From Deltaproteobacteria bacterium (GTDB lineage Bacteria > Desulfobacterota > Dissulfuribacteria > Dissulfuribacterales > QOAL01), in assembly GCA_026986785.1 (NCBI GenBank), contig JALSNW010000051.1, positions 1-64,000 of the forward strand: a DNA stretch of 64,000 bases. The letters run 5' to 3'. Shown in pieces: positions 13,380 through 28,789 of this stretch. The number at the start of each line of letters is the position of its first letter. Position 1 is the first letter of the stretch. The translations under genes were made by a program, and so were the position numbers. The notes below the pieces were generated by a model. The model did no database searches and was not told where the DNA came from. It saw nothing but the letters and a program-made list of their open reading frames with translations.

Positions 13380-15374
13380 ATGGATACCAGCAAGAGATTT
13401 GAAAAGGGCAATGGCGGATGCCCCAGCATCCAGTGTGAGGCAAACCGGGAGGTCCTGTGTAACTCATGTGCCCAGGGTGTCGTTACGGCTGCCCACAGGG
13501 TGCAGGACAGGAGCATAGAGCCTTGTCTCTTTGGGAAGGGCGGAACTTGTTGTAGGAACTGCAACATGGGACCATGCCAGATCATAGAAGGGGTGGATTC
13601 TATGATGGGGGTCTGTGGGGCAGATGCTGCTACAGTGGCGGCCAGGAATTTTGCAAGGATAGTAGCAGGTGGGGCTGCTGCCCATATGGATCATGGCCGT
13701 GGGGTGGCCCTGGCATTTCTGGCGACTGCCAAGGGTGAGACCCCATATGAGATCAAAGACGAAGAAAAACTCAGGCAGACAGCCCTTCGTCTTGGCATAG
13801 ATGCCGGGGAAAAATCCAAGACAGATCTTGCCATTGAAGTTGGTGAGAGGATGCTATCCGAGTTTGGTCAGCAGGAAGGGGTATTGACCTTTGTGAAACG
13901 CGCTCCCAAGCCAAGGCAGGAATTGTGGGAAAAACTTGGTGTTGCCCCCAGGGGTATAGATAGGGAGGTCGTGGAGATGATGCATCGAACCCACATGGGT
14001 GTGGATCAGCACTATGAGCACATACTCCAACAGGCAGCCCGTTGTGCCCTGGCAGATGGATGGGGTGCCTCCATGATAGCCACCGAGTTGTCGGATATCA
14101 TGTTCGGCACTCCAGTGCCCATAAGGAGCAGGGTAAATATAGGGGTACTCAAGAAGGAAGAGGTCAATGTGACTGTTCATGGTCATGAACCTGTTCTGGC
14201 AGAGGCTCTGGCCATGGCTGCAAACGACCCTGATATAGTCAGCGAGTGTAGGAAAGTGGGGGCCAAAGGTGTGAACCTGGCTGGCGTATGTTGTACTGGT
14301 AACGAGATCCTCATGAGGAGGGGTTTGCCCATAGCTGGCAGCTTTGTTCAACAGGAGGTAGTACTGGCAACGGGCGCTGTCGAGGCCATGGTGGTAGACG
14401 TCCAATGTATCATGCAAGGGGTATCACCAGTATCGAGCAACTACCACACTGCTCTTTTTACTACCTCGGACAAGGCGAAGATCACAGGGGCCACGCATAT
14501 CCCATTCGAAGAGCATAATGCAATGGATGTGGCCAAGGACATTCTGAGAAGGGCCATAGCCAAATTCCCAGAAAGGGGAAAGCACTTCATCCCTGCCCAT
14601 GAGATGGACGTGGTAGCAGGCTTCAGTCACGAGACCATAAATTACATCCTTGGTGGACGCTTCAGGGCTTCTTATAAGCCTCTGAATGACAATATAGTCA
14701 ACGGTAGGATCAGGGGAGTAGCCGCCATAGTCGGATGCGATAACTATAGGGTCATGGACGAGGTCCATGTGGAGCTTGCCAAGGAGCTTATTGCAAACAA
14801 TGTCTTGGTCTTGGTGACAGGATGTGCTGCAACTGGTATGGGGAGATCGGGGCTTCTTTCTCCAGAGGCCATGGACATGGCTGGAGACGGCCTGAGAGAG
14901 GTGCTCGAGGCAGTGGGATGTCCGCCAGTACTGCACATGGGCTCCTGTGTGGACAACAGCAGACTTCTCATAGCTACTACCGAGATGGTCCATACGGGTG
15001 GCTTGGGACATGACATCTATGAGCTTCCAGTTGTTGGTTGTGCACCCCAGTGGATGAGCGAAAAGGCCGTATCCATTGGACAATATTTCGTGTCGAGCGG
15101 GACCTACGTCGTATTTGGTCCGAGTTTCCCAACCACAGGTTCCAAGGTGGTTACGGATTTCTGCTTCAAAGAGATGGGAGAACTGTATGGCGGGTCCTGG
15201 GATGTTGCCCAAGGGGCAAATGAATTTGCCAACAAGATGATTGACAAGATCGATGAGAAGAGGAAGGCCTTGGGATTGGACAAGAAAAAGGAGCGTGTCT
15301 TGTTCGACATGGCCATGAGACGGGAACTGGGTTCGGGTATCCCTGGTATGGGATGTTCCCCAGGGGGACACTGA
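13380..15374 (+). CDS. cooS: Anaerobic carbon monoxide dehydrogenase, Ni-Fe catalytic subunit
   Basis: Reduces CO2 to CO for the carbonyl branch (or oxidises CO). 664 residues. The N-terminus carries the D- and B-cluster cysteines (CNSCAQG and the block CCRNCNMGPCQI). C-cluster ligands fall in the expected blocks: the Cys of GVCCTGNE, of DVQCIMQG, of VGCDN, of VTGCAATGMGR and of MGSCVDNSR, plus the His of VHGHEPV. As it sits with acsB, acsC, acsD and acsE, it could equally be called acsA. No CooC/AcsF nickel-insertion ATPase gene is present in the window. Next is hdrA, after a hairpin. Confidence 0.95.
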   Translation: MDTSKRFEKGNGGCPSIQCEANREVLCNSCAQGVVTAAHRVQDRSIEPCLFGKGGTCCRNCNMGPCQIIEGVDSMMGVCGADAATVAARNFARIVAGGAAAHMDHGRGVALAFLATAKGETPYEIKDEEKLRQTALRLGIDAGEKSKTDLAIEVGERMLSEFGQQEGVLTFVKRAPKPRQELWEKLGVAPRGIDREVVEMMHRTHMGVDQHYEHILQQAARCALADGWGASMIATELSDIMFGTPVPIRSRVNIGVLKKEEVNVTVHGHEPVLAEALAMAANDPDIVSECRKVGAKGVNLAGVCCTGNEILMRRGLPIAGSFVQQEVVLATGAVEAMVVDVQCIMQGVSPVSSNYHTALFTTSDKAKITGATHIPFEEHNAMDVAKDILRRAIAKFPERGKHFIPAHEMDVVAGFSHETINYILGGRFRASYKPLNDNIVNGRIRGVAAIVGCDNYRVMDEVHVELAKELIANNVLVLVTGCAATGMGRSGLLSPEAMDMAGDGLREVLEAVGCPPVLHMGSCVDNSRLLIATTEMVHTGGLGHDIYELPVVGCAPQWMSEKAVSIGQYFVSSGTYVVFGPSFPTTGSKVVTDFCFKEMGELYGGSWDVAQGANEFANKMIDKIDEKRKALGLDKKKERVLFDMAMRRELGSGIPGMGCSPGGH

Positions 15375-15422
15375 TCCTGTGTGGCCTGATGTTTTTTTGT
15401 TCGATTACAGGGAATTAGAACT

Positions 15423-15442
15423 GGTGTCCATGTGTGGACACC
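15423..15442 (+). promoter_or_regulatory. Perfect 8-bp hairpin between cooS and hdrA
   Basis: GGTGTCCA-TGTG-TGGACACC lies 28 bases before the hdrA ATG. There is no T-run after it. It may be an mRNA processing or stability element, or an operator that sets hdrA-fdhA expression apart from cooS. Confidence 0.45.
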
Positions 15443-15469
15443 TAATATCAACAATGCGGAGTGGCAAGA

Positions 15470-18400
15470 ATGGCTAAGAGCGGTTCAATAATGGTCCTCG
15501 GTGGTGGTGTGGCTGGAGTGCAGGCCGCACTGGACCTTGCCGATCTGGGCTACTATGTCTACCTGGTGGAAAAAAAGGCGTCCATCGGTGGAGTCATGGC
15601 CCAGCTTGACAAGACCTTTCCAACCAATGACTGTTCGTTGTGAATCCTGGCGCCAAAGCTGGTAGAGGCCGGTCGGTCTCCAAACATAGAAATCCTCACA
15701 AACGCCAGGTTGGAAGGGCTGGAGGGTAAGCCCGGACAGTTTACTGCAAAGGTATTTCAGGAGCCTCGCTATATAAACGAGGACCTGTGTACGGCTTGCG
15801 GGATGTGTACCATGTATTGTCCACGGCCTGTGGTAGATACCTACAACGAGCGCTTGGAGATAACCCGTGCGCCCCATATAGACTATGCCCAGGCAATCCC
15901 ATCCAGTTATTATATAGATGCAAAGGCCTGTCTCAGGGTCAATTTCGAGACATGTAATCTGTGTGCACAGACTTGTACTGCGGGTGCTATCGATTTCAGC
16001 CAGAAACCGAAGAGATTGGAGCTCGAGGTGGGGGCTGTAGTCTTAACCCCTGGCTTTGGCAGGGTGGATGCTGCAGTCCTTGAAAAATATGGCTATGGCA
16101 AATATCCAGACGTGGTTACAGCCTTTGAATTCGAACGTCTCACCTGCGCCTCTGGTCCCACTGAAGGGCATATCGTCAGGCCATCGGACAACAAGACGCC
16201 GAAAAAGATTGCATTCTTGCAATGCATAGGATCCAGGGATGAGACTTGTGGCAATGGATATTGTTCCTCTGTGTGTTGTATGTATGCCATAAAGGAGGCC
16301 TCTGTCGCCAAGGAACACGAACCCGATCTGGATGTGTCCATATTCTTCATGGATGTAAGGACCATGGGCAAGGGCTTTGACGAGGCGAGGAGGCGAGCCC
16401 AGGAAAAATACGGTATAAACGTCATACGTGCCAGGGTCCCAAGGGTGGATCAGGTGGATGGACGCCTTGCCCTGACATGGACCAGCGATGACGGCAATCA
16501 CCATTCCGGTATATTCGACATGGTGGTCCTTTCCGTGGGCCTTGAATCGCCCGAAGACGCACAGATCCTATCAGAGATAGCTGATATAGAGCTCAATCAC
16601 TATAATTTCTGTAGTACCCGGGTGGATGCCCCCCTTTCCACCAGTAGGGATGGGGTCTTCGTGGCAGGGGCATTTCAGGGGCCAAAAGACATACCCGAAA
16701 GCGTGACCCAAGCCTCTGGAGTGGCAGCTATTGCCTCAGAACTCTTGGCAGAGGCGAGAAATTCCAAGACCGTCAGCATAACCTATCCGGAAGAGAACAA
16801 GGCCCTTGAAGAGCAGGAGCCCAGGATAGGCATCTTTGTGTGTCACTGTGGTGTGAATATTGCCGGCGTAGTGGATGTCAAGGCAGTCAGAGACTATGCG
16901 GCTTCACTTCCAGGGGTGGTCCTTTATGAGGATCCACTCTATTCCTGTTCTCAGGATGCTCTCAAAAGCATTGCTGAAAAGATCAAGAAAAACAATCTGA
17001 ATAGAGTGGTTATTGCTGCATGTTCTCCCAGGACCCATGAACCACTTTTCCAGGAGACCCTTCGTTCTGTTGGGCTGAATCCAGCTTTGGTGGAAATGGC
17101 CAATATCAGGGATCAATGTGCATGGGTTCACGCCCAGGAACCGGATGCAGCTACGGAAAAGGCAAAGGACCTTGTCCGCATGGCAGCTGCAAAAGCCCGT
17201 CTTCTCACACCCCTGGAGCAACCCACAGTAGATGTCACCCCTGGAGCCCTTGTGCTTGGCGGTGGTGCCGCTGGCATGTCTGCTGCTTTGTCCATAGCAG
17301 AGCAGGGATACAACGTGGTGCTCGTGGAGAAATCGAGCCAGCTCGGAGGCAATCTGCGGCGTCTTACCTGGACCTTGGACGGAGAAAACGCAAAGGCGGT
17401 CCTGAAAGAGCTGATCTCCCGGGTAGATGCCCATCCAGGCATAGAGGTGATAACAGATTCTACTGTAGAGTCCATATCGGGTTACGTGGGCAATTTTACC
17501 AGTACCATAGCCACAGGGAAAAAGACCAGGCTCGTAAATCACGGTGTAACCGTGATTGCCACGGGTGCAAGGGAGTACAAGCCGAAATCCTACGGATATG
17601 GAGAAAGCCCCAGGATTGTAACCCAGCTCGAACTCGAGGAAAAGCTGGCCCGTGGGAAGAGCTTTTTGAAAAATGCCCGCAACATCGTAATGATCCAGTG
17701 TGTCGGCTCCCGCGGCGATGATATGAGCCATTGCAGCCGGCTGTGTTGTACCCAGGCAGTGAAAAATGCCTTGAAGCTCAAGGAATTGAAGCCGGACTGC
17801 AATATATATATCTTCTACAGGGACATGAGGACCTATGGCTTCTATGAAGATGCCTACAGGGAGGCCAGGAGAAAGGGCATCGTCTTTCTTAGATACAGCC
17901 CAGACAAGAGGCCTGAAGTCGTCAAACAATCCAGGGGGATAAAGGTGAGGGCCTTTGACAGGTTGCTCGGGGAGGATATAGAGATCCCTGCAAACTTAGT
18001 GGTATTGTCAGCTGGGATTGCTCCAGGAGACAATCAAGAGCTGTCAAAGATCCTGAAGGCCCCCCTTACTTCTGACGGCTTCTTCCTGGAAGCACATGCC
18101 AAGCTGAGGCCAGTTGAGATAGCTGTGGACGGGGTTTATCTCTGTGGTCTTGCCCACGGCCCAAAGAGCCTTGAGGAGTCAGTGGCTCAGGCCAAGGCAG
18201 CTGCCGCCAAGGCGACCATACCCTTGGCCAAGGGCAAGGTAGCTGTGGCCCCAATAGTTTCTCGGGTTGACCAGGATGCATGTATTGGATGTGGTATATG
18301 TGAAAGTCTTTGTCCATTCAATGCCATCAGGCTCTCCAAGGTGGGCAAGAGGAAGAAGGCCCAGACCATTACTGCCTCTTGCAAGGGCTGTGGTATATGT

Positions 18401-18505
18401 GCATCCCACTGCCCCACATTGGCCATTAGCATGGGAGGCTTTACGGACGAGGCCATTATGGCCCAGATTCATGCTTTTTCTGGTCAGGAATGTAGTGAGG
18501 GTTAG
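15470..18505 (+). CDS. hdrA: HdrA, double-length, selenocysteine-containing FAD/Fe-S subunit (in-frame TGA at 15641)
   Basis: The flavin core of heterodisulfide-reductase-type electron-bifurcating complexes. Translation must read TGA 15641-15643 as Sec58: the flanking residues [15 protein letters not shown] match the HdrA motif where other members have Cys or Sec. The full product is 1011 residues. The first half has a FAD motif ([13 protein letters not shown], about 11-23) and [4Fe-4S] motifs [12 protein letters not shown] (about 106) and CNLCAQTC (about 163). A second HdrA half starts with FVCHCGVNI (about 456), a second FAD motif (about 595) and two C-terminal ferredoxin motifs ([24 protein letters not shown]). 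I chose the ATG at 15470, eight bases after GGAG, over the GTG at 15461. mvhD follows six bases later. Confidence 0.93.
15665..15680 (+). promoter_or_regulatory. Bacterial SECIS hairpin in hdrA
   Basis: GAGGCC-GGTC-GGTCTC forms a 6-bp stem (one G-U pair) whose loop holds GGU. The loop lies 28-31 bases after the TGA, within the 16-37 base range known for bacterial SECIS elements. It lies inside the coding region, as bacterial SECIS elements must. Confidence 0.7.
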
Positions 18506-18511
18506 GGCAGC

Positions 18512-19318
18512 ATGGCAAAGGAAAACGCAGTCGAAAAGGAGAAAGAAATGACCCAAGAGGGTTTTGATCCCAAGATACTGGGCTTTTTTTGCCACTGGTG
18601 TTGCTATGCAGCAGCGGATTCGGCAGGGGTTTCCAGGTATCAATACCCGCCCAACGTCAGGGTTATAAGGGTGATGTGTACAGGTCGCATAGATGCGAGA
18701 TTCGTTGTTGAGGCCTTCCGATGCGGTGCTGACGGGGTTTTTACTGGTGGCTGACACCTTGGTGAATGTCATTACCAGTCTGGTAATTACGAGGCAATGA
18801 TAGTGACCGAGGCGAGTAGACAGCTATTGGAGGATTGTGGAGTCGATTCCGACAGGCTGTCTCTCGAATGGGCTTCTGCCGCAGAGGCACCGAGATTCGT
18901 GGAGCTAATAACTGGTTATGTCTCCAAGATCAGAGACAAGGGGCCTCTGGGTTCCAGCGATGGTGAAGTATCGAGAGATACAATCAAGCGCAGGCTTGCC
19001 GCGGCAGTCAAGGCAGCAGGGGCAAGAAAGCCCCGGACACTGCTGGGAAATCTGGCCAAAAAGCTGTCCAAATCGGGTGATTATTCCAAGGAGGCAATTG
19101 CAAACGGGGTAAAGGCAAAAGTGCTTCCTGCCATGAGATCTGAGAGGATATCCCATGAATTGAGGATCCTTCTTTCAGAAGCTCCTTTGGATATGAAATC
19201 GCTCTGTACCCAGACCGGGGCATCAGCCGAAGAGCTTGAGAAGATAATGGCACCCCTGGTCAAAAAAGGACTTATTTCCCAGAAAAAAGGCAAGATAGCC
19301 TTGGTGGCCGGGGAATAA
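18512..19318 (+). CDS. mvhD: MvhD-type [2Fe-2S] electron-transfer subunit, selenocysteine-containing (in-frame TGA at 18752)
   Basis: Links HdrA to its electron donor or acceptor. Reading TGA 18752-18754 as Sec81 gives a continuous 268-residue protein: the block [22 protein letters not shown] matches MvhD/VhuD, where this position is Cys or Sec. The other family cysteines are present ([20 protein letters not shown]). The family is usually about 140 residues. Here about 120 residues are added, ending in a winged-helix-like module (residues about 205-268, ISHELRILL ... [15 protein letters not shown]). The N-terminus has a charged 15-residue extension. hdrC follows after 23 bases. Confidence 0.92.
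18771..18787 (+). promoter_or_regulatory. Bacterial SECIS hairpin in mvhD
   Basis: ATTACC-AGTCT-GGTAAT is a perfect 6-bp stem with GU in the loop, the loop lying 22-26 bases after the TGA. Placement and loop match the E. coli fdhF type of SECIS. Confidence 0.75.
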
Positions 19319-19341
19319 TAATCGATTACAGGAACTAATTC

Positions 19342-19893
19342 ATGACTGTACAGTTATCAAAATTGAATCCGGCATTTGTGGAAGAGATACTGCCTCATCA
19401 GGGCTGCGATACCCTGAATCAATGCTATGGTTGCGGCTCGTGTAGTGGTGTCTGCCCTGTGGAGAAGGTAGTGGATGAGTTCGATCCCAGAAAGATCGTA
19501 CACATGGTATCCATGGGGATGGAGGAAGAACTGGTGACAGGGAACATCATATGGGCATGTTCCCAGTGTCAGAGTTGCATACCCGTATGTCCCCAGAATG
19601 TACGCTGTGCCGATGTAATAAAGGCACTTCGGGACGAGGCTATCAAGAGAAAATCCGTAGATGAACACAGGCTCGAGAGCTTGGGACAATTTGCTGTGGT
19701 AGAGGCCGGCAAGTGTGTGGCCTGCCTCACCTGTGTCAGGCTTTGTCCTTTTGGGGCCCCCCGGATCATAGAAGAAGGCTATGCTGTCATAGAGCCTGAG
19801 CTTTGTCATGCATGTGGGATATGTGTACTCGAATGTCCAGCCGAGGCAATCCGGCTTGCGCCGTCACCAGAGGCAAAGGGGGGATTAGCATGA
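19342..19893 (+). CDS. hdrC: HdrC-like protein with two extra ferredoxin clusters
   Basis: An iron-sulfur relay subunit, 183 residues. The first half is HdrC: CYGCGSCSGVCP (C28, C31, C34, C38) and CSQCQSCIPVCP (from about 73), separated by the helical FDPRKIVHMVSMGME segment typical of HdrC. The second half adds a two-cluster ferredoxin, CVACLTCVRLCP (about 125) and CHACGICVLECP (about 156). There is no hdrB (CCG-domain) gene next to it, so no site for heterodisulfide reduction. It therefore probably only conducts electrons, here to MetV/MetF. Its stop overlaps the next start (ATGA). Confidence 0.88.
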   Translation: MTVQLSKLNPAFVEEILPHQGCDTLNQCYGCGSCSGVCPVEKVVDEFDPRKIVHMVSMGMEEELVTGNIIWACSQCQSCIPVCPQNVRCADVIKALRDEAIKRKSVDEHRLESLGQFAVVEAGKCVACLTCVRLCPFGAPRIIEEGYAVIEPELCHACGICVLECPAEAIRLAPSPEAKGGLA

Positions 19894-20276
19894 GCAGGAT
19901 CAAGGGATTTTGTTGTAATTACACCCTCAGCGTGGAACCAGAGGCACTGAAGGGTGAAGGCCTCATCCCCGAAGATGTAGATCTGGAGAGGATCCCATGC
20001 ACTGGCCGATTGGAGGTTCCAGAGCTTCTCGATGCCTTTACTCAAGGGGCCTCTGCTGTATTTGTCGTGGGATGCCAGATAGATAAGTGCCATAACTTGT
20101 CCGGTAGTAGAAGGGCATCCAAGAGGGTGGCACAGGTAAAAAAGATACTCGAGGAACTGGATATGGACCCAGGCCTTGTGGAGATGTTTTTTGCTGGCAG
20201 GGGAGAGACCGAACCAGTGGTTGAGGCTGCCAGGATTATGGCATCGAGGGCCGGGGCTGGCAGTAGGCCAGAATAA
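19890..20276 (+). CDS. Second, shorter MvhD-like protein (Cys form)
   Basis: 128 residues, starting at the ATG that overlaps the hdrC stop. It aligns with the first MvhD: GFCCNYTL at the N-terminus, PCTGRLE in the middle and VVGCQIDKCHN where the first copy has Sec. So the Sec position is Cys here, and the N-terminal CXXC pair is reduced to adjacent cysteines (CC). It may bind a different or incomplete cluster. Its position between hdrC and metV suggests it is a structural or electron-transfer part of the same methylene-THF reductase complex. Confidence 0.82.
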   Translation: MSRIKGFCCNYTLSVEPEALKGEGLIPEDVDLERIPCTGRLEVPELLDAFTQGASAVFVVGCQIDKCHNLSGSRRASKRVAQVKKILEELDMDPGLVEMFFAGRGETEPVVEAARIMASRAGAGSRPE

Positions 20277-20309
20277 GAGATTGGTCCAGCAGATTTGGGG
20301 TAATATTCA

Positions 20310-20978
20310 ATGATAATTGCAGAAAGAAAGACACTTAAAGAGCTTCTGGAAATGGTCCAAGGCTGTAACCGCATCATGATCCTCGGTTGCAGAGGTTGTG
20401 TGGCAGTGTGTTCTGCAGGGGGAGACAAGGAGGTTAGCATTCTGGCCTCGGCCCTCAGGCTCGGCCTTTCCAGACAGGGCAAAGAGATAGAGATCCAGGA
20501 ACGGACCCTTGTCAGGCAATGTGATCCAGAATACATCGATCCCTTGAACGAGGAAGCATCTGATTTTGATGCAGTATTGTCGATGGCCTGCGGCGTGGGT
20601 GTCAATTTCATTGCCGATCGCTGTGAAGACATAAACGTACTGCCTGCACTGAATACTACATTTTACGGGGCCAATTTGTCCAGTGGGGAATGGAAGGAGA
20701 TGTGCGCAGGCTGCGGGGCCTGTGTACTCCATCTCACCGGTGGGCTTTGTCCTGTGGCAAGGTGTGCCAAGAGCCTTTCCAATGGGCCATGTGGTGGTTC
20801 TCAGGGTGGACGCTGTGAGATCAATCCGGATGTTCCATGCATCTGGCAGCAGATATACGATAAGCTTTCTCGACTCAACAGATCGGATGAAATGAAGAAT
20901 ATCATGCCAATACGCGACTGGACCCAGGCAGGCCATGGAGGCCCCCGTCGCAGAATTAGGGAGGACTTGCTGCCGTGA
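20310..20978 (+). CDS. metV: MetV, zinc/iron-sulfur partner of methylene-THF reductase
   Basis: 222 residues with the Cys-rich pattern of the methylene-THF reductase C-terminal-like family: LGCRGCVAVC (about 25-34), MACGVGVNF, CAGCGACVLHLTGGLCPVARC and a CGGSQGGRCE block. In Moorella the MetV-MetF pair works with HdrCBA-MvhD. MetV is needed for MetF activity and holds Zn or Fe-S. The same neighbours are present here except HdrB. The C-terminus is basic (GGPRRRIRED). Its TGA overlaps the GTG start of the MetF fusion, so the two are translationally coupled in the MetV:MetF order seen elsewhere. Confidence 0.88.
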   Translation: MIIAERKTLKELLEMVQGCNRIMILGCRGCVAVCSAGGDKEVSILASALRLGLSRQGKEIEIQERTLVRQCDPEYIDPLNEEASDFDAVLSMACGVGVNFIADRCEDINVLPALNTTFYGANLSSGEWKEMCAGCGACVLHLTGGLCPVARCAKSLSNGPCGGSQGGRCEINPDVPCIWQQIYDKLSRLNRSDEMKNIMPIRDWTQAGHGGPRRRIREDLLP

Positions 20979-23900
20979 AAGCAGGAAGCAATCTAGAAAA
21001 TGTGTTGCGCTCAGGTGCCTTTGCGGTCACAGGTGAACTGGGGCCACCAAAGAGTGGGGATCTGGAGCTGGTAAGAAAAAAGGCCAAGATATTGAAGGGC
21101 CATGTAGATGCTGTAAATATTACCGATTGTCAGACAGCCATTGTCAGGATGTCAAGTCTCACAGCAGGCTTGATTGCGCTTGCCGAAGGTCTGGAGCCGG
21201 TAATGCAGATGACCTGTAGGGACAGAAACCGTATAGGTATGCAGGCGGACATCCTCGGTGCTTCAGCCCTCGGCATCAAAAATCTCCTGTGTCTCACAGG
21301 AGACCATCAGAAATTCGGGAATCATCCCCAGGCCAAGGGCGTCTTCGACATGGACTCTATCCAGCTTCTTCAGATGGTCAAGAAGATGCGGGATGACAAG
21401 AGGTTTCAATGTGGGGAAGAGATCAAGGGTTCTGAACCCAATCTCTTTCTGGGTTGCGCTGCCAATCCCTTTGCCGATCCCTTTGAGTTCAGGCCAGTGA
21501 GATTGGCCAAAAAGGTGGAGGCGGGGGCAGATTTTGTCCAGACCCAGATCATCTATAATGTAGACAAGTTTGCCAGGTTCATGGAGATGGTCCGGGACTT
21601 AGGCGTACACGAAAAGTGTTTCATCCTGGCAGGAGTTACTCCTCCCAAGTCCCTGGGAATGGCCAGGTATATGAAAAAGTTCGTACCAGGTCTCGACGTT
21701 ACCGATGAGGTCCTGGCCCGACTTTCGGATTCTTCCGACCAGAGGGAAGAGGGCATAAACATATGTGTTGATATAATTAGGCAGGTCCAGGATATCCCAG
21801 GGGTTGCCGGTGTGCATATCATGGCCATTGAATGGGAAGAGGCCGTGCCAGAGATTGTAAAAAGGGCGGGTCTTGATCAGCGGCCGGAACCCAAGGGTGT
21901 CGAGCCGGTCCTGGCCAGTTTGGACAGTATCGAAAAGGCAGTGGAAGATGCCCGTAAAGAGGTGAGGATAGAGTTTGAGGAAGAGCTTGAAAGGGCAAAG
22001 ACAGAGGCCCAGGCCTCCCGTGAATTGGTGATCAAGGAAAAGGAAAAGGTGGCCTCTGAGATGTCGGATCTCAAAAAGCAGATAGAGGAGGCAAGGACTA
22101 TGGCAAGCCAGAAAGAGGCCGAAGTCCAAAGACTTACTGAAGAGATAGAAAGGACCAGGAAAGAACTGGAGAAGAGGCAGGCTATATCCACGTCAGACCT
22201 TGAGGCACCAGTGAACGCTCCAGTGGCGCCACCGGCGCCTCCTGTACCCCAAGGTCCAGGTCCTGCTTTGACCGATAGGGAACAAAGGGTGTTGGAGTCC
22301 TTGAACCTCGGACTTCAGGCATTGAAAGAGGTATTGGGCCTTGATGATTCCCAGTTTGAGGCCCTCAAGAGATTTCTCGAGGCAGAATTCATGCTCCAGT
22401 TGGCACAGGTTGCTCCGCCAGTGCCAGGGCGTGGGGCACCTCCTCCTCCACCCAAGGTAGAGGTCCCAGCCCAGGAAGTGTCGACTCCTGTGGAAGAGGT
22501 GGTCAGAGCCACTCCTGAGGAACAGGAAATAGAGCAAAGGCCAGCCGTTAGGGACAAGGAGGTGGTAAACCTTGTGGCAAAGGGCAATCTTGCCCTCCAC
22601 AGTGGGGATTATAATGGGGCTATAGATGCCTTTGAAAAGGCCCTTTCAATCGATGCCGGGGATGAAAAGGCCAAGAATGGTCTGGCAGAGGCCAAGGCCG
22701 CCCTCGAGAAGGAACTTTCTGGCGTAAAGGGGCCTTCTGTCAAGGCTGAGCCGGTTGAGACATCCCAAACCCTGCCCCCATGTCCTGAAGATGTGGATGA
22801 GCAGTGGTGGAAGGAAAAATGGGTCATACGCTATACTGCCAGGGGCAATGTCGCCCTCATGAAGGGTGATTACGATACTGCAATAGCAGAATTCAAAAAG
22901 GCTCTTTCAATCGATCCCCAGAACGAAAAGGCCAAGGATGGTCTAAACAGGGCGGAGAATAGACAGGGGATATACATACCGAGTATAGAAGCTGGTCCGA
23001 GGCCTGTTGAGAAAGCAAAAGAAGAGAAAGCACCAGTAACCGAAGAGCCAGGGCCTGAACCCCAGGAAAAAGAAAAGGAGAAGGTCTCTACTCCAGAACC
23101 TGAGCCTGAGGCCTCCAAAGCCAAAGAAGAGCCTGAGAAACCTGCACCAAAAGCAGAAAAACCCAGGATAGAGATATCTGCCCCTGCAGAGGAAGGTGTT
23201 TCTGATCTCTCTGTCCCCGTGTTATCCAAGGAAGAGCCCAGTCTGCCAGAAAGGGCTGGAGACATACCAGAGGAGGTGTACCTGGAGGCATGCTCAGGGG
23301 TGATCCAGAGTGTGACCCTTGGAGATGGGGACAAGGCCATCTCCGTTGGTGGAGAAACAGCACTGCCATTTTACAACTTCGAAGGGCAGATGCCCAATCC
23401 ACCAAGGGTGGCCTTTGAGGTTCTGGATACAGAGCCTGAGGAGTGGCCGGAGGTCCTTACCAAATATTTCTCCGACTGTTTGAATGACCCTCCAGCTTGG
23501 GCCAAGAAGTGTGTAGACGAATACAATGCCAAGTGTATCTGTCTCTCGCTCATCAGTACTGATCCAAACGGGGCGGATGCCTCTCCTGCGGAAGCGGCTG
23601 AAGTGGCACAAAAAGTGGTGGAGGCCGTTGATGTGCCAATTATATTCTGGGGTTGTGGGAATGCAGAAAAGGATACCGAGACCTTGCGAGAGATCACAGG
23701 CAGGATAGGAGAGAGAAAGGTATGCCTGGGGCCTTTGACGGATGCCAATTATAGGACCCTCGGGGCGACTGCAATGGCCTTTCAATATCCTGTTGTCGCA
23801 TCCACCCCCATTGATGTCAACCTGGCCAAGCAGTTGAATATTCTCCTTGAAAACCTGGGTGTGCATCTGGATCAGATCCTCATGGATCCATCCATTGGTG

Positions 23901-24199
23901 CTGTCGGATATGGTCTGGAATACACCTATTCGGTCATGGAGAGGATAAGGCTTGCAGCACTGACACAGCAGGACGACAAGCTGTCTTGTCCTTTCATATG
24001 TAACCTTGGTAGAGAGGTATGGAAGGCCAAGGAGACCAGACTGCCAAGTGACGGTATGCTCGGTGATCAGGAGCGGCGGGGTGTGCTCATGGAGGCAATT
24101 ACAGCCTCCACTCTTCTTCTCGCCGGTGGAGAGCTCATGGTGATGAGACATCCCAAGTCGGTTGCATTGACTGAGGCCCTCGTGGAAGGTCTCTTGTAG
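20975..24199 (+). CDS. Fusion of methylene-THF reductase (MetF) with corrinoid Fe-S protein small subunit (AcsD/CdhD) through a coiled-coil/TPR linker
   Basis: 1074 residues in one frame. Residues 1-310 are MetF, with the GELGPPKSGDLE N-terminus, TDCQTAIVRMS, the LCLTGDH block and the GAAxPFADP-like GCAANPFADPF. Residues about 310-405 are a charged coiled coil; about 405-425 and 480-500 are Pro-rich. Two TPR-like units follow at about 527-575 and 612-662 (GDYxxAIxxFxKALSIDxxxEKAK). About 670-760 is a Glu/Pro/Lys-rich spacer. Residues about 764-1074 are the AcsD TIM barrel (SVGGETALPFYNFEG, DPSIGAVGYGLEYTYSVMERIR). There is no ATG with a ribosome site at the AcsD junction and no separate acsD in the window. 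MetF makes methyl-THF; AcsD with AcsC accepts the methyl group. Confidence 0.93.
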   Translation: MKAGSNLENVLRSGAFAVTGELGPPKSGDLELVRKKAKILKGHVDAVNITDCQTAIVRMSSLTAGLIALAEGLEPVMQMTCRDRNRIGMQADILGASALGIKNLLCLTGDHQKFGNHPQAKGVFDMDSIQLLQMVKKMRDDKRFQCGEEIKGSEPNLFLGCAANPFADPFEFRPVRLAKKVEAGADFVQTQIIYNVDKFARFMEMVRDLGVHEKCFILAGVTPPKSLGMARYMKKFVPGLDVTDEVLARLSDSSDQREEGINICVDIIRQVQDIPGVAGVHIMAIEWEEAVPEIVKRAGLDQRPEPKGVEPVLASLDSIEKAVEDARKEVRIEFEEELERAKTEAQASRELVIKEKEKVASEMSDLKKQIEEARTMASQKEAEVQRLTEEIERTRKELEKRQAISTSDLEAPVNAPVAPPAPPVPQGPGPALTDREQRVLESLNLGLQALKEVLGLDDSQFEALKRFLEAEFMLQLAQVAPPVPGRGAPPPPPKVEVPAQEVSTPVEEVVRATPEEQEIEQRPAVRDKEVVNLVAKGNLALHSGDYNGAIDAFEKALSIDAGDEKAKNGLAEAKAALEKELSGVKGPSVKAEPVETSQTLPPCPEDVDEQWWKEKWVIRYTARGNVALMKGDYDTAIAEFKKALSIDPQNEKAKDGLNRAENRQGIYIPSIEAGPRPVEKAKEEKAPVTEEPGPEPQEKEKEKVSTPEPEPEASKAKEEPEKPAPKAEKPRIEISAPAEEGVSDLSVPVLSKEEPSLPERAGDIPEEVYLEACSGVIQSVTLGDGDKAISVGGETALPFYNFEGQMPNPPRVAFEVLDTEPEEWPEVLTKYFSDCLNDPPAWAKKCVDEYNAKCICLSLISTDPNGADASPAEAAEVAQKVVEAVDVPIIFWGCGNAEKDTETLREITGRIGERKVCLGPLTDANYRTLGATAMAFQYPVVASTPIDVNLAKQLNILLENLGVHLDQILMDPSIGAVGYGLEYTYSVMERIRLAALTQQDDKLSCPFICNLGREVWKAKETRLPSDGMLGDQERRGVLMEAITASTLLLAGGELMVMRHPKSVALTEALVEGLL
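22558..22981 (+). repeat. Two TPR-like repeats, about 261 bases apart, inside the MetF-AcsD linker
   Basis: The two units share long stretches even at DNA level (for example CTTTCAATCGAT, then GAAAAGGCCAAG). They differ mainly in the loop (DAGDE versus DPQNE). The similarity indicates a fairly recent internal duplication. TPR-like helical hairpins usually mediate protein-protein contacts, so they are candidates for docking to other Wood-Ljungdahl enzymes. Confidence 0.7.
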
Positions 24200-24229
24200 A
24201 GCTATGCCATAGGAACTGACGGAATAAGG

Positions 24230-24248
24230 TTCAGGAGAGGTTCCTGAA
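24230..24248 (+). promoter_or_regulatory. Small perfect hairpin between the MetF-AcsD fusion and acsB
   Basis: TTCAGGA-GAGGT-TCCTGAA in an 84-base gap, the largest gap between folD and the operon's end apart from the one before hdrA. No T-run follows. It could be an RNA processing or stability site allowing acsB to be made at a different level. Confidence 0.35.
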
Positions 24249-24283
24249 GAGAATTTCAAAGAGAAACTTAGAGAGGAAAGAAT

Positions 24284-26491
24284 ATGTCCAAGATAATCTG
24301 TTCTGCAGCGATCCGAGGCGCACACAAGATAGTGGATATGGCCGAGGAAAAATTTGAGGATGCCCTGAAGAAGTATGGTCCTGAACAGGAAGTGGCATTT
24401 CCCAATACAGCCTATTATCTACCTATTATCTACAGTATGCTGGGTGCGCCTGTGAAACAGCTGGGGGATATGAAGGATATCTTCCAAGAGTGCAGAAAGC
24501 TTCTCCCTCCCCCGGTAAGCGATCACCTTTGGCTTCCGTATCTGGCGCCAGCCCTGGATGCAGGCATGGCCACATATTTTGCAGAGGAGATGTTTGAGGC
24601 CATAAGGTATATTGAGGAACCCCAGTATTATACGAAGACCGAAGATCCCCCTTCCAGTGGTAACTATTGGCTGGGTGCTGCAGACGATATTATCTTCAGA
24701 AAGAGGGGCGTAGAATTCGTGGATGGAACGGCCCCGGGCTTTGCAGCAATACTTGGCTCCCCGGCAAAGGCCGAGGAGGCCGAGAAGATAGCCATAGAGC
24801 TTCAGGAAAAGAATCTATACATCTTCTTGCACGATCAGACCGATGGGATCTACTTCCCTGATCAGCTTCTAAAGAGGAAGGTACAGATTGGTTGGTCTAC
24901 CAGGCTCGTACCCTTTGGCCCTACTTATACCTCCACTGTCTTTTCCATTGGTTTTGCTTGCCGTGTGGCCCTTGCCTTTGGAGGTATCAAACCAGGTGAT
25001 TACAAGGGGAATCTGATATACAACAAGGATCGCACCTTTGCCTTTGTCATAGCCTTTGGTCCCGTGTCCGACGAATGGTATGCCAATGCTGCCGGGGCCA
25101 TCAACTGGGGTTTCCCTACAATTTCGGACTGGGATATCCCCGAGGTCCTGCCAACTGGTATATGTACGTACGAACACGTGGTGAGCAATGTCCCCCATGA
25201 CGAGATAGTCCAGAAGGCCATCGAGGTAAGGGGACTCAAGGTCAGCGTTACCAAGATCGATATCCCGGTGTCCTATGGGCCGGCATTCGAAGGTGAGCGG
25301 ATCAGGAAAGACGATCTTTACCTGGAGTGCGGTGGCGGCAGGACCCTTGGTGTCGAGGTCCTCGTATCCAAGGATATGGACGAGGTAGAAGACGGCAAGG
25401 TCATCGTGGAAGGTCCAGAGATGACAGAGGTGGAAGAGGGGGCCAAGCTTCCCTTGGCCATCTTGGTCGAAGTGGCGGGCAGACAGATGCAGCCGGATTT
25501 CGAGCCCATACTCGAACGCCAGTTTCATCATCTCATAAACTATGCCCAGGGCATTATGCATATTGGCCAAAGAAATATCATGTGGCTCAGGGTGGGAAAG
25601 GCTGCAATAGAAAAGGGCTTCAAATTCGAACATATCGGCAGGATCTTGCATGGAAAGCTTCATCAGGATTTTGGGGCCATCGTGGACAAGGTACAGGTCA
25701 AGATCTACACCATTGAGGACAAGGTCAAGGAGGTGCTGGAGCTGGCCAAAGAGGTCTATGCCGAAAGGGATAGGCGTCTCGGTTCTATGACGGACGAGAG
25801 CGAAGATATCTTTTACTCTTGTACTTTGTGCCAGTCCTTTGCCCCGAGCCATGTCTGCGTGATAACTCCAGAGCGTATCGGCATGTGTGGGGCCTACAAC
25901 TGGTTGGACGGGAAGGCATCTTACGAGATCAATCCTACTGGCCCTAACCAGCCAATCGAAAAGGGCAAGTGCATCGATCCCAAGCTCGGACAGTGGGAAG
26001 GGATCAATGAATTTGTCAAGAAGGCCTCCAGGGGCAAGGTGGAAAGGGTAAGTGCCTATTCTCTCATGATCGATCCCATGACTGCCTGTGGATGTTTCGA
26101 GTGTATTGCCACGATGCTTCCCATGTGTAATGGCATAATGATCGTCAACAGGGATTATATGGGCATGACTCCGAGCGGCATGAAGTTTACCACCCTTGCA
26201 GGCATGGTTGGTGGTGGTCAGGTTACTCCAGGATTTCTTGGTGTATCCAAGCACTACATTTGTTCCAGGAAATTCATGCAGGCTGAAGGTGGTCTGAAAA
26301 GGGTGGTCTGGATGCCCAAGATGCTCAAAGAGGAACTCCGGGAGCGTCTGGAAGAGAGGGCCAAGGAGGAGGGAATACCTGAGCTTCTGGACTTGATAGC
26401 AGATGAAGAAGTGGGTGTTTCCGAGGATGAGGTGTTGAAATTCTTGCAGGAGAAGGGTCATCCTGCACTTTCTATGGAAAGCGTAGTTTAA
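24284..26491 (+). CDS. acsB: Acetyl-CoA synthase catalytic subunit (CODH/ACS)
   Basis: Condenses the corrinoid-bound methyl group, CO and CoA to acetyl-CoA. 735 residues, the bacterial length with the N-terminal CooS-contacting domain that archaeal CdhC lacks. The A-cluster ligands are all visible: Cys513, Cys516, Cys525 and Cys535 (CTLC ... HVC ... GMC) for the [4Fe-4S] cluster and the CGC motif (Cys602-Gly-Cys604) for the distal nickel. The numbering runs exactly seven above the Moorella enzyme. It is followed closely by acsC (15 bases). Confidence 0.97.
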   Translation: MSKIICSAAIRGAHKIVDMAEEKFEDALKKYGPEQEVAFPNTAYYLPIIYSMLGAPVKQLGDMKDIFQECRKLLPPPVSDHLWLPYLAPALDAGMATYFAEEMFEAIRYIEEPQYYTKTEDPPSSGNYWLGAADDIIFRKRGVEFVDGTAPGFAAILGSPAKAEEAEKIAIELQEKNLYIFLHDQTDGIYFPDQLLKRKVQIGWSTRLVPFGPTYTSTVFSIGFACRVALAFGGIKPGDYKGNLIYNKDRTFAFVIAFGPVSDEWYANAAGAINWGFPTISDWDIPEVLPTGICTYEHVVSNVPHDEIVQKAIEVRGLKVSVTKIDIPVSYGPAFEGERIRKDDLYLECGGGRTLGVEVLVSKDMDEVEDGKVIVEGPEMTEVEEGAKLPLAILVEVAGRQMQPDFEPILERQFHHLINYAQGIMHIGQRNIMWLRVGKAAIEKGFKFEHIGRILHGKLHQDFGAIVDKVQVKIYTIEDKVKEVLELAKEVYAERDRRLGSMTDESEDIFYSCTLCQSFAPSHVCVITPERIGMCGAYNWLDGKASYEINPTGPNQPIEKGKCIDPKLGQWEGINEFVKKASRGKVERVSAYSLMIDPMTACGCFECIATMLPMCNGIMIVNRDYMGMTPSGMKFTTLAGMVGGGQVTPGFLGVSKHYICSRKFMQAEGGLKRVVWMPKMLKEELRERLEERAKEEGIPELLDLIADEEVGVSEDEVLKFLQEKGHPALSMESVV

Positions 26492-26506
26492 GAGGAGCTA
26501 AGGATC

Positions 26507-27859
26507 ATGGCGCTTACTGGAATAGAGATCCTGAAAATGCTCCCCAAGAAAAATTGTGGGGAGTGTGGTGTACCTACCTGTTTGGCCTTTGCAATGAAGG
26601 TTGCTGCAGGTCAGGCAGAGATAGGTGCTTGTCCCTATGTTTCAGAGGATGTGAAGGAAAAGGTCAGTGAGGCCAGTGCGCCTCCCATTAGGACCATCAC
26701 CTTGGGAAGCGGGGATGACAAGTTTGTCTTTGGTGGTGAGACTTGTCTCTACAGGCATGAGAAGAGATTCGAGCATCCTACCGGCATTGCTGTAATGCTG
26801 TCTGCCGATATGGATCCGTCGGAAATAGATGGGAGATTGGACCGTTTCTTGGCCCTTCGCTATGATAGGGTAGGGGTTGAGCTTAAGGCTGACATGTTTG
26901 CTATCAAGGATGTTGGTGATTCCCAGGCCTTTGTTGGCTTGGTCGAAAAGGTCCGCTCAAAATGTCCTGATGCCAGCATCATTCTCATGAGCGAAGATCC
27001 ACAGGTCATCAAGGCTGGTGCAGAGACCTGCGGTAAACACGTTCCCCTGCTATTTGCAGCAACCGCCTCCAATGCAGAGGCCATGGCCGAGGTCGCCAAG
27101 GAGACCGGCTGCCCCATTGTGGTAAAAGGGGAAAATATCGGAGAGACGGCAAAGATATCTGAAAAACTCCAGGCTGACGGCCTCAAGGATTTGGTCCTGG
27201 ATACCGGTGCCCGCACCATGAAGAGTGTGTACGAGGACCAGATAGTGTGCAGAAGGGCATCTGTGAAACACAAGTACAAGCCCTTGGGCTTTCCAACCAT
27301 AACCTTTCCATGTGAGATGACAGATGATCCCTTCATGGAGACGGTCATCTCTTCCATACTCATAGCCAAGTATGCGGGTATCATAGTGCTTTCTGACCTG
27401 CAGGGTGATCTGTTGTTCCCCTTGCTACTTGAACGGCTCAACATCTTTACAGATCCTCAACGCCCCATGGTGGTACAGGAGGATATCTATCCTATCAACG
27501 GCCCTGATGAGAATTCTCCAGTGCTCATAACCTGTAATTTCTCTTTGACCTATTTTATCGTCTCTGGTGAGATAGAAGGCAGCAAGGTGCCATCTTGGCT
27601 CCTCATTAAAGATACCGAGGGGCTTTCCGTATTGACGGCTTGGGCGGCAGGAAAATTCAGTGCAGATCTCATCGCCCAGTTCGTGAAGAAGAGCGGCATA
27701 GAAGAAAAGGTGAGACACAGAAGTCTTATAATCCCTGGTTATCTTGCATCCATCAAGGGTGAGTTGGAGGAGGAACTGCCAGATTGGAAGATACAGATAG
27801 GCCCAAGAGAGGCAAGTCATCTCCCTCCATTCCTCAAAAGTTGGAAACCGGAAGATTAG
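26507..27859 (+). CDS. acsC: Corrinoid iron-sulfur protein, large subunit
   Basis: Carries the corrinoid cofactor and a [4Fe-4S] cluster, and shuttles the methyl group from AcsE to AcsB as a heterodimer with AcsD. 450 residues. The N-terminal cluster cysteines are C17, C20, C25 and C42 (NCGECGVPTC ... ACPYV). A TIM barrel containing FVFGGETCLYRHEKRF follows. A C-terminal Rossmann-like domain (from about 320, with PVLITCNFSLTYFIVSGEIEGS) binds the corrinoid. Its partner AcsD is supplied only as the C-terminal domain of the MetF fusion upstream. Confidence 0.96.
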   Translation: MALTGIEILKMLPKKNCGECGVPTCLAFAMKVAAGQAEIGACPYVSEDVKEKVSEASAPPIRTITLGSGDDKFVFGGETCLYRHEKRFEHPTGIAVMLSADMDPSEIDGRLDRFLALRYDRVGVELKADMFAIKDVGDSQAFVGLVEKVRSKCPDASIILMSEDPQVIKAGAETCGKHVPLLFAATASNAEAMAEVAKETGCPIVVKGENIGETAKISEKLQADGLKDLVLDTGARTMKSVYEDQIVCRRASVKHKYKPLGFPTITFPCEMTDDPFMETVISSILIAKYAGIIVLSDLQGDLLFPLLLERLNIFTDPQRPMVVQEDIYPINGPDENSPVLITCNFSLTYFIVSGEIEGSKVPSWLLIKDTEGLSVLTAWAAGKFSADLIAQFVKKSGIEEKVRHRSLIIPGYLASIKGELEEELPDWKIQIGPREASHLPPFLKSWKPED

Positions 27860-27898
27860 GCTGCTCTAAGGGTCAAAAAATCAAGTGAGGAAATTGCT

Positions 27899-28789
27899 AT
27901 GTATGTCCAATGTATAGCTGAAAGTATAAATATTATGGGAACCCGTACTGGGAATGCCATGAGATCCAGAGACCCTGGGCCCATCGTGGAGATGGCCCAT
28001 GAAGAGGTGGCAGATGGTGGTGACTTCCTGGACCTTAACATAGGCCCTGCAAGGAAGGACGGGCCTGAACTCATGCCCTGGATCGTCAATGTGGTAGAGG
28101 AGGTCACAGATTGTCCCCTGTCGCTGGATACCACGAACGCCGATGCATTGATAGCAGGGATGAAGGCGGCAAAACACCCTGAACATCACATCATGAACTC
28201 CATCTCCTTGCAACCAGAAAGGATGAAAAAGCTCATCCCCGTAGCCGCGGAATCTGGTTGTTTTGTCGTTGGCCTCTTGTGGGGGGTTGATGGCATGCCC
28301 CGGGATTCCAACGAAAGGGCTGCCATGACCATAGACCTCCTCATGGCCATGAACGAGGCCGGGATCCCGAATGAAAAGATCCTGGTCGATCCCATAGCTA
28401 CACCTATAACCTTGGGGTCCGATCAGGTCATGAGCGGATTGGAATTCATGGCGATGCTGCCAGATATTGCCCCAGGGGCAAAGAGCACAGTGGGGCTTTC
28501 GAATGTGTCGAATGGTGTGGATTCCAAGTTACGGCCTTATTTGAACAGGGCATTTCTGGCCATGTTGATGAAATATGGCCTCTGGTCTGCTATTGTCGAT
28601 ACCTATGACCATGAGCTGATAGAGCTCGCACATGGGCAGCGTCCCGAGCTAATCAAATTGGTGCATGATATCATGGATGACAACGATCCAGATCCATCAG
28701 GCCTTTCAGACAAGGAATTGGAATATTACAAGACCACCAGGGTGCTCATGGGCAAGACGATTTTTTCCGAATCCTGGCTGGAGCTTTAG
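27899..28789 (+). CDS. acsE: Methyl-THF:corrinoid iron-sulfur protein methyltransferase
   Basis: Moves the methyl group from methyl-THF to the Co(I) of AcsC/AcsD. 296 residues in a pterin-binding TIM barrel: ESINIMGTRTGNAMRSRDP, the pterin-pocket DLNIGPA block (about 41-47), LSLDTTNADAL, ILVDPIATPI and LGLSNVSNG-like VGLSNVSNGVDSKLRPYLNR. It is slightly longer than Moorella AcsE (262) at both ends. It follows acsC after 39 bases. The substrate producer (MetF) and acceptor (AcsD) are fused into one upstream protein, so AcsE would bridge those two domains. Confidence 0.94.
   Translation: MYVQCIAESINIMGTRTGNAMRSRDPGPIVEMAHEEVADGGDFLDLNIGPARKDGPELMPWIVNVVEEVTDCPLSLDTTNADALIAGMKAAKHPEHHIMNSISLQPERMKKLIPVAAESGCFVVGLLWGVDGMPRDSNERAAMTIDLLMAMNEAGIPNEKILVDPIATPITLGSDQVMSGLEFMAMLPDIAPGAKSTVGLSNVSNGVDSKLRPYLNRAFLAMLMKYGLWSAIVDTYDHELIELAHGQRPELIKLVHDIMDDNDPDPSGLSDKELEYYKTTRVLMGKTIFSESWLEL

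Follow-up and report, generated by a model that had tools for sequence, protein, structure and literature searches.

A MetF-AcsD fusion protein of the Wood-Ljungdahl pathway is conserved in three classes of Desulfobacterota

The first 64,000 nucleotides (nt) of contig JALSNW010000051.1 (assembly GCA_026986785.1), from a Deltaproteobacteria bacterium of the class Dissulfuribacteria, are referred to here as the window. They contain a Wood-Ljungdahl operon (13380 to 28789; all features described lie on the forward strand) with the order acsA-hdrA-mvhD-hdrC-like-mvhD-metV-(metF-acsD)-acsB-acsC-acsE, in which metF and acsD form one gene. This gene (20975 to 24199, stop codon included) is a single unbroken frame of 1074 codons that starts with GTG and encodes a protein with a predicted mass of 117.4 kDa. 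From the N terminus, the protein comprises MetF (amino acids [aa] 1 to 300), a 466-aa linker (aa 301 to 766), and AcsD (aa 767 to 1074). A first-pass annotation of the DNA had proposed this layout, and Pfam, NCBIfam, and PDB alignments bore it out.

The MetF domain (20975 to 21874) was identified as a complete methylenetetrahydrofolate reductase (MTHFR) by its Pfam match, PDB alignment, residue conservation, and modeled fold. PF02219 matched aa 7 to 299 with an E value of 2e-39 (hmmscan), and in an AlphaFold2 model the MetF part matched the fold of the T. thermophilus MTHFR. The catalytic residues Glu21, Asp110, and Gln191 were invariant in 43 of 43 fused proteins; on alignment to solved MTHFRs, we take them to correspond to Glu28, Asp120, and Gln183 of the E. 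coli enzyme. Two more MTHFR-type proteins are encoded in the same genome (C48:4225-5022 and C23:65409-66251), namely, a homocysteine methyltransferase-MTHFR protein of the NF006396/PRK08645 type and a protein that combines MetF and MetV. The fused MetF is therefore not the only one of the organism, and it is the MetF of the pathway by its operon context.

The AcsD/CdhD domain (23273 to 24196) represents the small subunit of the corrinoid/iron-sulfur protein (CFeSP). The first-pass annotation had called it the corrinoid methyl-carrier subunit, which needs correction in that the small subunit carries the corrinoid together with AcsC. PF03599 matched aa 780 to 1020 (E value, 6e-43; score, 147.5; cutoff, 24.8). 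The NCBIfam AcsD models spanned aa 767 to 1073; NF003376 scored 379 (cutoff, 280) over aa 771 to 1073, and the WLP_AcsD exception model scored 305.6, under its own cutoff of 430. The alignment of aa 767 to 1066 with the CFeSP small subunit 2h9a_B begins at residue 4 of that chain, so the AcsD part is complete; the identity was 47%, and the TM score of the AlphaFold2 model was 0.94. Homologues of AcsD are also found in solved complexes of CFeSP with AcsE (4djd) and with carbon monoxide dehydrogenase/acetyl-CoA synthase (CODH/ACS; 9fzy). The fused domain is full length like the free AcsD/CdhD proteins (2h9a_B, 4djd_D, and 9fzy_E), but unlike these proteins of about 310 aa it bears MetF and the linker at its N terminus. 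The genome (99% complete) has two PF03599 loci, AcsC (26696 to 27826) and the fused AcsD, and thus holds no separate acsD. A separate copy elsewhere was accordingly rejected, in agreement with the earlier proposal that the fusion takes the place of acsD.

A check for a frameshift or misassembly revealed none. Both domains share one frame in all 43 fused relatives aligned. Across the 46 genomes of the class to which the window belongs, AcsD frames are about 1000 to 1180 aa long, and every genome with an acsD locus uninterrupted by a gap or the end of a contig has the fusion. The shorter AcsD frames were considered as true separate genes, a reading that was rejected because they sit at contig ends or behind a run of N's; in L053, an N run interrupts the frame, and the linker is readable in another frame. 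The fusion is also carried by Dissulfurimicrobium hydrothermale (1004 aa; L116:4490-7504), and the closed genome of its strain Sh68 was built from a combination of long-read and short-read data (PMC8780430).

The linker consists of conserved structured islands that alternate with fast-evolving Pro/Glu spacers. In the AlphaFold2 model, which was built from 43 sequences, the MetF and AcsD ends were well ordered, and four ordered elements were separated by disordered spacers. The first element is an 86-aa amphipathic, coiled-coil-like helix (aa 316 to 401; 21920 to 22177), with predicted local distance difference test (pLDDT) values of mostly 73 to 84. Its hydrophobic periodicity of 3.6 was equaled in strength in 0 of 2000 shuffles, and its hidden Markov model matched 14 of 14 Dissulfuribacteria rows and none of the other rows. 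A Pro/Ala spacer predicted to be disordered (aa 402 to 433; 22178 to 22273; 28% Pro; pLDDT of <50 over most of its length) leads to a helical hairpin (aa 434 to 476; 22274 to 22402; helices 434 to 454 and 458 to 476). The hairpin, to which the first-pass annotation had drawn no particular attention, is the sole linker element that could be traced throughout the fused clade. Profile matches between Dissulfuribacteria and Desulfobulbia had E values of 1e-9 to 1e-15, and those to Thermodesulfobacteria were weaker (down to 2e-8, best via L120, a sequence of family f92).

Downstream of the hairpin, a fast-evolving Pro/Glu spacer (aa 477 to 527; 22403 to 22555), likewise predicted to be disordered, precedes two three-helix tetratricopeptide repeat (TPR) units. 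These units (aa 528 to 584, 22556 to 22726, pLDDT of about 95; aa 609 to 661, 22799 to 22957, pLDDT of 87 to 96) are separated by a short spacer (aa 585 to 608; 22727 to 22798) and followed by an acidic Pro/Glu/Lys spacer with predicted disorder (aa 662 to 756; 22958 to 23242). Pfam TPR_2 matched the linker in two stretches (E value, 4e-13; score, 48.7; cutoff, 27), one of them at aa 620 to 650 in the second unit. TPR matches (at an E value threshold of 0.001) were obtained for 17 of the 43 fused proteins, comprising all Dissulfuribacteria rows, L120, and the L084/L123 pair; none was obtained for the Desulfobulbia or Thermodesulfobacteriaceae rows. Because the repeats are limited to certain lineages, the suggestion of the first-pass annotation that they dock AcsE, AcsC, or MetV cannot hold as a general principle. 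In the model of the Thermosulfurimonas dismutans fusion, a single linker helix takes the equivalent position, and its surroundings are disordered. Replacement differences per site between the window and L036 were about 0.10 to 0.14 in the islands and 0.27 to 0.41 in the spacers; substitution ratios were given little weight because synonymous sites are near saturation. The islands are under purifying selection in the fusion frame.

Proteins with both MTHFR and CdhD/AcsD domains, the combination proposed earlier as a search target, proved to be numerous in genomes of the Dissulfuribacteria, Desulfobulbia, and Thermodesulfobacteria, with TPRs between the domains in only some of them. A scan of named genomes found the fusion in Desulfobulbaceae, Desulfocapsa, Desulfurivibrionaceae, T. 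dismutans S95, and Caldimicrobium, and the MetF relatives listed in that scan from outside the Desulfobacterota were unfused. We also scanned 394 Desulfobacterota genomes with the AcsD domain as the query, since searches with PF03599 were swamped by AcsC matches. Two size classes of AcsD frames were obtained, fused (722 to 1180 aa) versus separate (mostly 313 to 550 aa). The fused frames listed belonged to the order of the window and to families f36, f68, f69, f78, f92, and f100. Outside these groups AcsD was separate, and the one listed frame of fused size was the AcsD-CODH protein of G068. Exceptions inside fused families were the split genes of G131 and G339 (both f36), the frame of G035, which lies at the end of a contig, and an additional, unfused AcsD in G039.

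Other extended AcsD proteins were encountered in the phylum. Frames of about 500 to 550 aa were examined as possible relatives of the linker and rejected: in L130, L131, and L134, AcsD is extended by a C-terminal, low-complexity Pro/Ala/Lys tail of about 200 aa with AEAKAKAEAEAK repeats, and the hairpin profile gave no match in the tailed AcsD of L130. L134 (G039:C81) belongs to the same order as the window and is an unfused, tailed second AcsD that occurs beside the fusion, which suggests a horizontally acquired copy. In another family, G068 (L129:3816-7187) has a 1123-aa frame in which AcsD is followed by a linker rich in Pro, Ala, and Glu and then by CODH (AcsA). This frame resembles the fusion in that AcsD is attached to another pathway part through a Pro/Ala/Glu linker; it differs in that the partner is CODH at the C terminus, and it is an unrelated single case.

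In the AcsD tree (77 rows), 53 fused and 2 split sequences were placed together on one side of a branch with support of 100/99, and the split pair nested within the Thermodesulfobacteriaceae. These sequence relationships fit a history of one fusion and one later split. The MetF tree required three changes with the distant rows L136 and L138 and, in agreement with the AcsD tree, two changes without them. In L132, the operon order is the same and metF and acsD are separate neighbors, an arrangement that plausibly depicts the ancestor. The split genes come from Thermodesulfobacterium-like genomes (L126:4677-6824 and L127:4222-6421). In both, MetF stops at the domain boundary, and AcsD has at its start a helical stretch with homology to the hairpin of the fused linkers; in L126, a single in-frame stop codon parts MetF from the AcsD frame, with a separate ATG start shortly downstream. 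The same two genomes have acsC and acsE in one open frame (L126:1-2363, 787 aa; L127:1-1958, 652 aa), both cut by the end of the locus, which is possibly another fusion in the pathway.

The fusion is encoded together with acsA, acsB, acsC, and acsE and with the genes of an apparent electron transfer module. The operon begins with acsA/cooS for CO dehydrogenase (13380 to 15374; TIGR01702 over its cutoff). The hdrA-like gene (15470 to 18505) extends some 240 nt (15470 to 15710) beyond the 5' end of its listed open reading frame, and its frame is broken by an in-frame TGA after NDCSL; when this TGA was read through, the HdrA2 score rose from 883 to 1016 bits. The first mvhD/FlpD gene (18512 to 19318; FlpD E value of 2e-47 across the TGA) has an in-frame TGA at 18752 to 18754 in place of the expected Cys in a GGCH motif. 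Both TGA codons probably specify selenocysteine, which would make hdrA the second selenoprotein gene of the cluster; SelB and tRNA-Sec are encoded in the genome. Genes for an HdrC-like 4Fe-4S protein (19342 to 19893) and a second MvhD/FlpD-like protein (19803 to 20276; PF02662 E value of 2e-23; annotated start possibly too early) follow. Downstream of the fusion lie acsB for acetyl-CoA synthase (24284 to 26491; NF040764 over its cutoff), acsC for the CFeSP large subunit (26507 to 27859; NF003195 over its cutoff), and acsE for the methyltetrahydrofolate (methyl-THF):CFeSP methyltransferase (27899 to 28789; Pterin_bind match, NF005719 under its cutoff).

MetFV-type reductases are recognized by a metV gene upstream of metF and an MTHFR-C domain with the motif NGPCGG (PMC8515935). 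In the window, metV, which encodes the partner subunit of MetF (20310 to 20978; PF12225 E value of 7e-36; NGPCGG present), lies upstream of the fusion and overlaps its start by 4 nt; MetV had no sequence match in the PDB. This overlap, the motif, and the adjacent HdrA, HdrC-like, and MvhD genes are shared with the 6S subtype of Moorella thermoacetica (HdrABC-MvhD-MetFV), in which MetFV and HdrABC-MvhD form a hexamer (PMC8515935). Unlike that system, MetF of the window carries AcsD, HdrA and MvhD contain in-frame TGA codons, and HdrB was absent from the cluster genes scanned, the remaining genome not having been searched for it. The homocysteine methyltransferase-MTHFR and MetF-MetV proteins are similar to the fusion in joining an MTHFR to a neighboring pathway component; their partners differ, and no subunit of a corrinoid protein is attached to them through a long jointed linker. 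The E2 proteins of 2-oxo-acid dehydrogenases have swinging-arm linkers. Their flexible Pro/Ala-rich segments between the folded domains of a multienzyme carrier offer a possible analogy of working only, with no homology and no lipoyl domain.

We consider that the fusion is probably a genuine tethered Wood-Ljungdahl protein, which keeps the MetFV reductase close to the corrinoid carrier of the methyl group. AcsD would pair with AcsC to form CFeSP, so that each carrier would be leashed to a MetF. MetF would bind MetV and probably the adjacently encoded HdrA-MvhD module, so that reductase and methyl carrier would become one assembly of fixed stoichiometry near AcsE. Such a leash may favor a local methyl hand-off from MetF through methyl-THF and AcsE to CFeSP and may leave the carrier free to move back and forth between AcsE and ACS. 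Docking or oligomerization would most likely be the role of the conserved hairpin in the middle of the linker, and the TPRs and long helix could be lineage-specific spacers or additional docking surfaces. A tether between consecutive parts of the pathway, as first proposed, is supported, being compatible with the operon and with a linker that is long and jointed.

Several points weigh against this interpretation. AcsD itself does not bind folate, methyl-THF being bound by AcsE, and therefore the fusion does not unite two enzymes that share a methyl-THF site. The linker varies from 206 to 470 aa across lineages, and its content also varies greatly, so no precise geometry is conserved; a linker this long yields only a loose proximity effect. 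Thermodesulfobacterium-like genomes manage without the covalent link, and some Desulfobulbia (L118, L121, and L122) have no hdr, mvhD, or metV at the fusion locus, with MetV encoded elsewhere.

A more ambitious reading, which we put forward tentatively as a minority possibility, takes the fusion as the covalently joined core around which a Wood-Ljungdahl supercomplex would be built. In it, a bifurcating or confurcating MetFV-HdrA-MvhD unit and the corrinoid carrier, docked through the hairpin, would pass on the methyl group (or an electron for cobalt reactivation) without equilibration with the folate or electron pool of the cell.

An alternative that we regard as unlikely is a device for assembly and stoichiometry only, which would secure a 1:1 ratio and colocalized subunits with no kinetic channeling and in which the linker would be a drifting passive spacer. 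The range of linker lengths, their variable composition, the working split genes, and the unfused operon order of L132 all agree with such a device; the hairpin, however, is conserved and was kept by AcsD after the split, and the islands are under purifying selection. A redox tether seems rather improbable. It would bring the electron module (MetV, HdrA, and MvhD) near the corrinoid protein for re-reduction of Co(II) to Co(I) or for a co-regulated electron supply, not for methyl channeling. Reactivation of CFeSP is normally served by its own dedicated factors, and the Desulfobulbia loci devoid of hdr, mvhD, and metV also speak against this role. Consistent with it are the position of hdrA, the two mvhD-like genes, the HdrC-like gene, and metV directly upstream, the metV-metF overlap, and the presence of Fe-S clusters in MetV-type MTHFRs (PMC8515935). 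Maturation into separate MetF and AcsD, by a posttranslational cut or an internal AcsD start, is very improbable: the long exposed disordered spacers and a GTG with a moderate Shine-Dalgarno sequence near AcsD in the window would permit it, but no conserved internal start was found across 22 fused genes, and the fusion has been kept across three classes. An assembly or sequencing artifact that joined two genes, conceivable for a 52-contig assembly such as that of the window, is refuted by dozens of independent assemblies, including the closed genome.

The fusion is real, conserved, and, as far as we searched, undescribed, and it is surprising for specialists of the pathway. The first-pass annotation knew of no described MetF-AcsD fusion, and we found no description in the open-access literature searched; the protein is nevertheless not peculiar to this organism, since it sits in dozens of public genomes. 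In papers on fusion-bearing organisms, the gene seems to have escaped attention, MetF and CODH/ACS being listed with no notice taken of the fusion. For D. hydrothermale, MTHFR is listed at other loci and the pathway is called incomplete by KEGG (PMC8780430); for "Ca. Desulfobulbus rimicarensis," acsABC is listed and acsD is not (PMC7117923). The fusion may account for automatic annotations in which acsD seems to be lacking and the pathway looks incomplete. It marks a clade in the evolution of Desulfobacterota AcsD, and it is the rule in three classes of sulfur bacteria, to which two or more cultured autotrophs belong. Few routes of CO2 fixation are as old or as well studied as the Wood-Ljungdahl pathway, and the fusion makes channeling from its methyl branch to the corrinoid protein testable.

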